From Flavobacterium cerinum (GTDB taxonomy: Bacteria; Bacteroidota; Bacteroidia; Flavobacteriales; Flavobacteriaceae): a DNA stretch of 64,000 bases. Within the stretch, counting starts at the first letter, position 1. Each line of letters starts with the position of its first letter. This document shows, piece by piece, positions 58,772 to 60,431 of the stretch. A program made the position numbers and the translations under genes. Below the pieces are notes generated by a model. It was given only the letters and a program-made list of their open reading frames with translations. It was not told the origin of the DNA and did not search any database. The DNA is taken from NCBI RefSeq assembly GCF_024496085.1, contig NZ_CP101751.1:1-64000 (forward strand), given 5' to 3'.

Positions 58772-59074
58772 TTAAATATGAGCTCTTACCCTGTCTTTTC
58801 TCTTCAATAATAAACGCTCTAAAGAATCAGCAGATAAATCAACCGCTTCTTCAAAAGTTTTGCTTTGTTTTTTCACAATGAACTCATCTCCGGGAACACT
58901 GATCCTCACCTCTACTATTTTATTTTCTTTATCACTTGTATTTTCAACTTTCAAAAACACATCAGAAGAAACAACTCTGTCGTAATACTTTTCTAATTTC
59001 CCTAATCTGTCATGAACAAAAACAATTAGCTTTTTATCAACATTAAAATTGACAGCCTGAACATTTACTTTCAT
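58772..59074 (-). CDS. hpf: Ribosome hibernation-promoting factor (short HPF/RaiA type)
   Basis: A 100-residue protein of the HPF/RaiA family that binds the decoding centre of idle ribosomes. It begins MKVNVQAVNFNVDKKLIVFV. It has the family's alternating strand/helix pattern and a basic C-terminal helix (SADSLERLLLKRKDRVRAH). It lacks the C-terminal domain of long HPF, so it is the short form. It begins 19 bases after xerC and is the last gene of the rpsU-xerC-hpf group. Both rpsU and hpf concern ribosome function. Confidence 0.93.
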   Translation of the reverse strand: MKVNVQAVNFNVDKKLIVFVHDRLGKLEKYYDRVVSSDVFLKVENTSDKENKIVEVRISVPGDEFIVKKQSKTFEEAVDLSADSLERLLLKRKDRVRAHI

Positions 59075-59093: not shown

Positions 59094-60002
59094 TTAATTT
59101 TCGAAATTGTTCCGGTTACGAGGATGCGCCTCCTGATAGATTTTTTTTAACTCAGCGAGACTGCTGTGCGTATAAATCTGCGTAGATGACAAACTAGCGT
59201 GACCTAACAATTCCTTAACTGAATTTATATCGGCACCATTGTTCAACAAATGTGTTGCAAAGGTATGCCTAAGAACGTGAGGACTCTTTTTTACCTTCTC
59301 AGAGACACTACTAAAGTAATCATTTATTAATCGATAAACAAACGATTCACTCACTTTATACCCTTTTTGGCTCAATATTAACAAATCATTATCTGCAATT
59401 GAAATTAACTTTTCTCTTTCTTTAAGATAACGATTTATTAATCGATCCGTACACTCCAAAACCGGCAACAAACGCTCTTTATTCCGTTTCCCTAACACCT
59501 TTAACGTTTTCGAATACGTATTATAATCCACCCATTTCAACCCTATTAATTCCGAACGCCTTAATCCCAGCGCATAAAAAAGCTCCACAATCAAACGATC
59601 CCGAATCGCTTCAAAACCATCATCCTCTCCTATTTCTTCAAAAACCAGATTCAGCTCTTTTTCTGAAAACGGAATCTGCACTTTCCGCGCCACCTTCAAC
59701 GCTTTATGCTTTTGAAGCGGATTCACATCAATTTGCCTTGTTTTCAACAAAAAACGATAAAATGATTTTAAGGAAGATATTTTACGATTGACCGACAGCG
59801 TCGAAAGTCCCGACTCAACCAACTCTACAATCCAGGATCGGACATGGCTATAATTGACTTTTTCCAGCTCAACATCAAAACGTTGCGCCTGCAAAAAAGC
59901 CTCAAAAAACCGCACATCATTCACATAAGCCGTGAGCGTATGCACAGAAAACTTCTTTTCTTTCTGCAAATATTCCTGATATGCTTCTAATAATGTATGC
60001 AT
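59094..60002 (-). CDS. xerC: Tyrosine recombinase XerC
   Basis: A 302-residue site-specific recombinase, probably one of the pair that resolves chromosome dimers at dif. The N-terminal SAM-like core-binding domain spans about 1-90. The catalytic residues are all present: R148 (GLRRSEL), K172 (GKRNKER), H242 and R245 ([13 protein letters not shown]), H268 (LGHASLS) and Y277 (TQIYTHSS). The ATG follows immediately after the U-tract of the rpsU terminator, so expression depends on read-through or an unseen promoter. No integrated element or attachment site is seen nearby, which supports a housekeeping role over a phage integrase. Confidence 0.93.
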
Positions 60003-60009
60003 AAAAAAA

Positions 60010-60046
60010 CCGTTAGCAGCAAAGTTAAAAACTTTACCGCTAACGG
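60010..60046 (-). terminator. Terminator of rpsU, abutting the xerC start codon
   Basis: An outer stem CCGTTAGC / GCTAACGG and an inner stem AAAGTT / AACTTT form a compact hairpin. On the minus strand seven T follow (60009-60003), and the xerC ATG starts at the very next base. Confidence 0.88.
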
Positions 60047-60069
60047 CTATAATAAAATCCTAATAACTA

Positions 60070-60264
60070 CTAATTCTCTAAAGAATCTCTTAGTGTCTGG
60101 ATATAAGCTGCCTTTTGGATTTGCGCTCTTCTTGTTACTGACGGTTTCGTGAATGCCTGACGACTTCTTAATTGTCTAACAACTCCCGTTTTGTCGAATT
60201 TTCTTTTGTAACGTTTTAACGCTCTATCAATATTCTCTCCGTCTTTAATTGGTATAATCAACAT
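60070..60264 (-). CDS. rpsU: 30S ribosomal protein S21
   Basis: A 64-residue basic small-subunit protein that begins MLIIPIKDGENIDRALKRYK and continues with the typical RKFDKTGVVRQLRSRQAF block. In Flavobacterium johnsoniae, bS21 helps to hide the anti-Shine-Dalgarno end of 16S rRNA, and its mRNA is under autogenous control; those are literature facts, not seen here. Here rpsU has a consensus Shine-Dalgarno sequence 7 bases before the ATG, a complete promoter with a short leader, and a strong terminator before xerC. These fit a self-regulated single-gene transcript with some read-through. Confidence 0.97.
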   Translation of the reverse strand: MLIIPIKDGENIDRALKRYKRKFDKTGVVRQLRSRQAFTKPSVTRRAQIQKAAYIQTLRDSLEN

Positions 60265-60271
60265 AATATAA

Positions 60272-60279
60272 CACCTCCT
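60272..60279 (-). promoter_or_regulatory. Consensus Shine-Dalgarno sequence of rpsU
   Basis: The minus strand reads AGGAGGTG, an 8-base match to the anti-Shine-Dalgarno end of bacterial 16S rRNA, with 7 bases (TTATATT) before the ATG. I saw no comparably strong one in front of the other genes whose starts I inspected. Confidence 0.9.
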
Positions 60280-60293
60280 CTCGTTAATGGGTG

Positions 60294-60322
60294 CAAAAGT
60301 ATAACTTTATTTTGATTTCCAA
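60294..60322 (-). promoter_or_regulatory. Promoter of rpsU
   Basis: On the minus strand, TTG at 60322-60320, 18 bases of spacer, then TACTTTTG at 60301-60294. The leader would be about 25 bases and holds the Shine-Dalgarno sequence. Confidence 0.8.
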
Positions 60323-60387
60323 AACAGAAAACAACATTTATTAAACTTCCTTAGTCAAAAATACTCCTACAAGCCTTATTAAAACAC

Positions 60388-60412
60388 CTGACAGGTTTTA
60401 AAAACCTGTCAG
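60388..60412. repeat. Dispersed palindrome, copy 3 (CTGACAGGTTTT type)
   Basis: Perfect 12-base arms (CTGACAGGTTTT / AAAACCTGTCAG) around a single A. The core is identical to the copy at 10244-10280. It lies between the rpsU promoter and the acyl-CoA dehydrogenase terminator. Confidence 0.85.
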
Positions 60413-60431
60413 ATGAAAATCAGGTGTAATA

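Follow-up and report, generated by a model that had tools for sequence, protein, structure and literature searches.

The gene for ribosomal protein bS21 (rpsU) of Flavobacterium cerinum carries a complete Shine-Dalgarno (SD) sequence in a genome that seems not to use such signals, which raises the question of what the sequence does there, how exceptional it is and how far it extends among related bacteria and their viruses. The genome consists of one contig of 4,077,824 bp (4.08 Mb) with five 16S genes, and the window analysed here is its first 64 kb.

The rpsU start signal in F. cerinum

A preliminary description of this locus had reported a classic SD sequence seven bases before the rpsU start codon. 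The sequence, AGGAGGTG, was indeed found on the minus strand, with seven bases (TTATATT) separating it from the ATG at 60264. The observation is confirmed and had been understated, since the signal stood whereas its extent of 8 nt did not. The 3′ ends of all five 16S genes read ...GGAACACCTCCTTTCT (in other extent, GGCTGGAACACCTCCTTTCT), with the anti-SD intact, and the complementarity at rpsU therefore covers 13 nt with one G·U pair, compared with 12 nt in most of the Flavobacterium leaders examined alongside it. The extended element, GAGAGGAGGTGTT at 60282-60270, stops 5 nt short of the ATG. Its pairing energy, calculated with a different program from that of PMC9976891, lies well below the -13 kcal/mol taken as a mark of bS21 autoregulation.

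Table 1. Features of the rpsU region, with positions in the window.
Feature	Position	Strand	Basis
rpsU, ribosomal protein bS21, 64 aa, with Tyr54	60070..60264	-	ORF; Pfam Ribosomal_S21, E 1.4e-18
Extended Shine-Dalgarno sequence GAGAGGAGGTGTT	60270..60282	-	13 nt complementary (one G·U) to 16S tail AACACCUCCUUUC; -21.3 kcal/mol
Predicted leader, 25 nt	60265..60289	-	distance from promoter-like element
-7-like promoter element TACTTTTG (TAnnTTTG)	60294..60301	-	sequence; ends 29 nt before ATG
-33-like promoter element TTTG	60320..60323	-	sequence; 18 nt before -7 element
Terminator-like hairpin with T run, after rpsU	60008..60048	-	19 pairs, 7 G-C
XerC-like tyrosine recombinase	59094..60002	-	Pfam Phage_integrase; adjoins rpsU in 6/6 standard loci fetched
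hpf/raiA-like ribosome hibernation factor	58772..59074	-	Pfam Ribosomal_S30AE; near rpsU in 6/6 standard loci fetched

Two sequences upstream of rpsU, TTTG and TAnnTTTG, match what we take to be the -33 and -7 elements of the Bacteroidota-type promoter consensus. TTTG-N18-TACTTTTG stops 29 nt short of the ATG, which predicts a leader of about 25 nt. In all 81 leaders compared (the window and 80 relatives) TAnnTTTG ends 27-32 nt before the ATG, the distance being 29 nt in 54 of them. Together with the terminator-like hairpin after the gene, the promoter-like element would fit an rpsU that is transcribed alone with this short leader, as far as sequence can tell; the F. johnsoniae rpsU leader is likewise about 25 nt long (PMC9976891). 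A structured leader was considered and rejected, the fold being in no way unusual (z 0.01). The order rpsU-xerC-hpf was kept in six of six standard loci from other genomes, and tuf was present in five of the six stretches. Upstream of the rpsU promoter, at 60385-60415, there is another terminator-like hairpin on the minus strand, of 14 pairs.

How exceptional the signal is was judged over the whole genome and in a sample of gene starts. The pattern GRRRGGRGGTGTT, which admits standard and G·U pairs with the 16S tail, was matched on both strands (about 8 million positions) and gave six exact matches in the 4,077,824 bp, one of them at rpsU and the other five antisense to the 16S tails. Allowing one mismatch added 20 sites, compared with 14 in all for a reversed-pattern control, and individual inspection of the 20 revealed no likely ATG gene start at SD spacing. 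The shorter motif, searched as AGGAGGTG-N1-9-ATG, matched eight times with rpsU included; of the other seven matches, two run antisense to long ORFs and five fall within longer ORFs of the sense strand. L012, the match that comes closest to being doubtful, lies in frame within a 117-aa ORF. The sample comprised 363 ORFs of at least 100 aa and covered 464 kb, or 11% of the genome: the window itself and 20 stretches of 20 kb placed at even intervals. With starts picked mechanically, and with a mock window 40 nt further up that often falls in coding sequence, the mean SD energy was -1.25 kcal/mol versus -2.59 in the mock window; 5 ORFs versus 16 mock windows reached -7 kcal/mol or below, and none versus 2 reached -11. 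SD-like sequences are thus rarer before starts than further upstream, a depletion also published for F. johnsoniae (PMC9976891). The best sampled ORF reached -10.9 kcal/mol, compared with -21.3 for rpsU. Further strong-SD genes were sought in this genome and rejected on the genome-wide matches to the 13-mer and to AGGAGGTG and on the 363-ORF sample. The earlier statement that no comparably strong sequence precedes other genes, made from the starts then inspected, therefore held, as the 13-mer is unique outside the 16S genes and none of the 363 sampled ORFs lies at or below -11. The scan of gene starts for anti-SD complementarity that had been proposed with it, carried out on these 363 ORFs (11% of the genome), left rpsU alone in strength.

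The published circuit, its conservation and alternative explanations

In F. johnsoniae, loss of bS21 frees the anti-SD of the ribosomes and leads to faster initiation on rpsU (McNutt et al. 2023, PMC9976891, where related work by Jha et al. 2021 is cited). In vivo, expression of an rpsU'-gfp fusion goes up by a factor of about 3 to more than 4 when bS21 is mutated or depleted. Ribosomes largely without bS21 gain about 10 fold in initiation rate on rpsU at 20 °C, and on SD-less mRNAs they do worse (PMC9976891). In the same paper one exceptional SD gene per genome is the typical case among 200 Flavobacteriales, and a signal like the one in the window is thus not peculiar to it. In the F. johnsoniae ribosome structure, 7jil, Tyr54 of bS21 redirects the 16S tail, and chains z, w and k of this structure are the best solved-structure matches of bS21, bS18 and bS6 of F. 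cerinum. All three proteins are of the Bacteroidia type, with Tyr54, the contact residue compared, present in bS21.

The components of the loop (an intact anti-SD, an extended SD, Tyr54 and closely matching bS18 and bS6) are therefore all present here, and the rpsU signal is very probably the autoregulatory translation signal of bS21 known from Flavobacteriales. The 3′ end of 16S rRNA would normally be hidden in a pocket of bS21, bS18 and bS6, so that genes in this genome would hardly use SD sequences. A 30S subunit without bS21 would free the anti-SD and initiate faster at rpsU, whose short leader it would pair with over 13 nt; newly made bS21 would fill the site and damp its own synthesis. 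Sequestration of the tail and the response of rpsU to bS21 loss would be expected in F. cerinum by analogy with the published experiments. The mechanism itself is already published, for the same genus; the F. cerinum locus resembles that of F. johnsoniae in the extended SD, the leader of about 25 nt, the intact anti-SD, Tyr54, the close pocket proteins and the SD-poor genome, and differs in being known here from its sequence, whereas the F. johnsoniae locus is known from experiment. The involvement of bS21 and the autogenous control of rpsU in F. johnsoniae, which the preliminary description had put down as known, are thus in print with genetics and biochemistry (PMC9976891). The feedback loop that it drew from them stands in substance, with the mechanism published and the needed parts present; its wording that only ribosomes lacking bS21 translate this mRNA well was too strong, since bS21-replete ribosomes still translate rpsU at a reduced rate and the initiation advantage of bS21-poor ribosomes is gone at 37 °C in a dipeptide assay (PMC9976891). 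Few specialised-ribosome circuits have been proven in bacteria, and the locus may be regarded as a clean example of one of them.

Conservation was followed in the best 80 of 554 named-genome matches, mostly from Flavobacterium, with pairing runs scored against the 16-nt F. cerinum 16S tail; of the whole-genome loci among L148-L177, those on the minus strand are left out of the counts from the leader read. All 80 loci have Tyr54 and an 11-13-pair run. Sixty further genomes of the order were chosen from the listed matches to cover families and genera outside Flavobacterium, and 30 of them carried a strong matching SD at rpsU: nine of nine in f1 (the family of F. cerinum), 13 of 14 in f5 and 8 of 19 in f7. 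It was absent from the other 11 genomes of f7, from G168 of f5, where a partial GAGATGT remains, and from all 18 rpsU genes read in f2, f6 and f9-f15, the strongest of which reached -9.9 (G010). With half of the genomes read outside the genus lacking a strong SD, presence of the signal is patchy across the order. Four of the f7 genomes without it (G033, G090, G116, G218) keep the canonical core of the 16S tail. Of the 14 f5 genomes, 12 have a 16S tail reading AACATCTCATTTTA, two gave no 16S match, and 13 have the rpsU leader ATGAGATGT; as judged from these sequences, the changes in tail and leader are a compensatory covariation that repeats a published result. A 16S match was missing from 56 of 72 genomes in one survey and from 22 of 42 in another.

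Two other explanations were weighed against this evidence. If the rpsU match were a chance occurrence or a functionless relic, it might be expected to come and go as it does outside the genus; yet outside the 16S genes it occurs a single time in 8 million positions, exactly at rpsU, it is kept in all 80 near relatives (the best 80 of 554), and the SD covaries with a changed anti-SD. The covariation already makes this explanation unlikely, and with the other observations it is barely credible. A strong SD might instead simply boost a highly expressed ribosomal gene with no feedback at all, and in SD-using organisms it would suffice for that purpose. The 363 genes sampled here avoid SDs, however, and in F. 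johnsoniae a strong SD placed in a tuf reporter gave somewhat lower expression in the wild type, while the same reporter rose when bS21 was mutated or depleted (PMC9976891). A boost without feedback is accordingly improbable.

A few deviating sequences were noted along the way. In G012 (family f12; C1:1794790-1794815) the 16S tail reads AACACCTCATTTATA, with a changed anti-SD core, and rpsU of this genome lacks an SD. One of the six 16S copies of G257 (C1:3961459-3961483) reads GGATCATCTCATTTTA and the other five GGAACATCTCATTTTA. Metagenome bins titled Limnohabitans, Lentimicrobium and Chryseobacterium gleum (L073, L113, L145) contain Flavobacterium-type rpsU leaders and were probably binned wrongly.

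A second bS21 type in Flavobacteriaceae

At least one bS21 was found in 269 of 296 genomes of the order surveyed, some of which have two or three bS21 genes; F. cerinum itself has one bS21 and one RpoD-like gene. A second bS21 type was recognised by score in 107 of 397 sampled genomes of the family (hand count; query of the second type, E of 2.8e-23 or less), and about 50 of the 107 were read. Since SD energies were calculated with a 16-nt tail for the 80 relatives and for a first set of nine two-type f1 genomes, and with a 13-nt tail for the 363 ORFs, the viral genes, a 30-genome set and the genomes with type 2 only, values differ slightly between sets. In the nine-genome set all nine standard copies have an 11-12-pair run (-17.6 to -20.7), and none of the ten further copies has anything stronger than -9.8 (G095); the 16S tail is identical to that of F. 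cerinum in seven of the nine, which are all that gave a 16S match. In the best 30 of the 107 genomes, a 10-pair run is present at all 30 standard copies (-15.7 to -15.9, 13-nt tail) and an SD at none of the 30 second copies (the gene of L371 being counted as L441). Combined, with G276 in both sets, the 38 two-type genomes have a strong SD at 38 of 38 standard rpsU genes, each with a run of at least 10 pairs, and none at 38 of 39 further copies, the exception being the weak one of G095 (-9.8). Four genomes of other families with two bS21 matches (G093, G122, G179, G259) showed no strong SD at the copies read; one copy of G259 has no start.

Many type-2 genes lie next to a sigma factor gene. In six of ten neighbourhoods (L285, L286, L291-L294) type 2 starts 28-32 nt after an RpoD-like gene of 287 aa with Pfam sigma-70 regions 1.2, 2, 3 and 4. 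Among 29 located copies (L370-L399), a simple search by motif placed 12 at 28-37 nt behind such a gene and showed no such neighbour for the remaining 17. A second RpoD-like gene was found in seven of the nine two-type genomes and in five of 11 single-type genomes as well, and is thus not specific to the former. The sequence TTTAGGATAA, seen before several second-type genes, was considered as an operator and rejected, as it is the end of the sigma coding frame. In G095 a third bS21 copy (L287) is found two genes ahead of an RpoD-like gene that is more distant (57% identity).

Genomes of other phyla can also have more than one bS21 gene on the chromosome; the discussion of PMC9976891 lists such cases, of which the Francisella paralogs are an example (PMC9578407). 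That list names no Bacteroidota, and the Flavobacteriaceae second type differs by its missing SD. A search of the literature on Flavobacteriaceae bS21 paralogs, on rpsU with rpoD and on phage bS21 with SD sequences, supplements aside, did not find an SD-less second type.

Viral bS21, a possible off-switch and genomes with type 2 alone

Phages are known to encode bS21 (Chen et al. 2022, PMC9723584), and Bacteroidota-type bS21 was likewise found in viruses here; the passages of that paper considered here contain no SD analysis of the phage gene. The viral sample comprised 21 loci and the best 80 of 312 from a wider search, partly on the same contigs, and the latter 80 collapse to 38 distinct leader-plus-protein sets. 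In 37 of the 38 nothing stronger than -8.5 was found against either tail, so that these distinct copies have no strong SD. The exception, L295, combines an f5-type leader (-14.4) with a near-standard bS21. In a separate listing, of which 7 of 16 phage records were read, the huge phage L061, one of five Bacteroidota-type huge or fecal records (L061-L065), has AAAGGAGG at its bS21 (-12.1). Two fecal records, L066 and L067, have purine-rich leaders (-16) and a bS21 of another type without Tyr54, and were left out of the Bacteroidota-type counts. The 237 genes around viral bS21 have a mean SD energy of -0.91 versus -2.22 in the mock window, two of them reaching -12.2 and -13.6; the genes of these viral neighbourhoods are thus, on average, without an SD too, and viral bS21 may simply share a general habit. 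The contig of L295 (IMGVR_UViG_3300002520_000085) carries a Chryseobacterium-like rpsU with the matching altered SD and is likely to be host DNA or a prophage flank.

A bS21 tree of 134 rows was built on 64 columns; 71 of its 131 inner branches are open and several branches are long. One of its groups, with an SH-aLRT of just 91, unites 20 of the 31 phage rows, 16 of the 18 second copies and all ten rows from genomes with type 2 only; the remaining 11 phage rows fell outside, as did the second copies L198 and L201. The tree thus places most type-2 copies beside the phage group with weak support. Taken together, an SD at the standard copies and none at the second-type and most viral copies suggests a signal that belongs to one bS21 lineage, not to bS21 as such, and that can be bypassed; this pattern was not found in the literature searched.

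Such a pattern allows an addition to the autoregulatory loop that does not compete with it. If the loop reads total bS21 occupancy, a second-type or phage bS21 that enters the ribosome and carries no SD of its own would switch the host rpsU off. Besides the distribution of the SD over standard, further and viral copies, the invariance of Tyr54 in an alignment of 20 standard, second-type and phage bS21 sequences speaks for this. Against it, the missing SDs may reflect only the general habit of viral genes described above, L061 does have a classic SD, and five of 38 viral proteins (L295, L312, L313, L355, L361) lack the tyrosine, as judged by eye. An off-switch of this kind is possible, if somewhat doubtful, and the comparison makes it testable.

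A fuller scenario, which is rather unlikely as a whole, would give each of two bS21 lineages its own role. At the rpsU-xerC-hpf-tuf locus, type 1 would carry the extended SD and so report bS21-free ribosomes. Type 2, which has Tyr54 and in many cases directly follows an extra RpoD-like sigma gene, would lack the SD and escape the loop. Type 2 filling the ribosomes would close the anti-SD and shut off type 1, amounting to a switch of ribosome type tied to an alternative sigma factor; phage bS21 without a strong SD, partly next to type 2 in the weak tree, would silence the host gene likewise. In some lineages type 2 would have replaced type 1, and the loop would be gone.

Genomes whose single detected bS21 is type 2 bear on this last step. 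Twelve were found in the family, ten of them at least 92% complete (G163, G381, G569, G571, G634, G472, G423, G599, G470 and G633; L429-L438), with a cut-off of E 0.001, which may have let a further, very divergent bS21 escape. A strong SD is missing from this gene in all 12 (13-nt tail): the ten reach -2.0 at most, G357 -4.0 and G316 -6.8. In a neighbour comparison from which a dehydrogenase query was left out, xerC, hpf and tuf were absent within about 2.5 kb of the gene in eight of eight loci fetched. The loop thus seems to have been lost by gene replacement, and, as ten near-complete genomes appear to have the SD-less type only, would be dispensable in evolution. These genomes offer natural loss experiments, and those with both types an internal control, with and without the signal. 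Of the ten near-complete genomes, nine, including the one-contig G163, gave no 16S match; the tenth, G569, a complete genome with type 2 only, keeps the canonical anti-SD.
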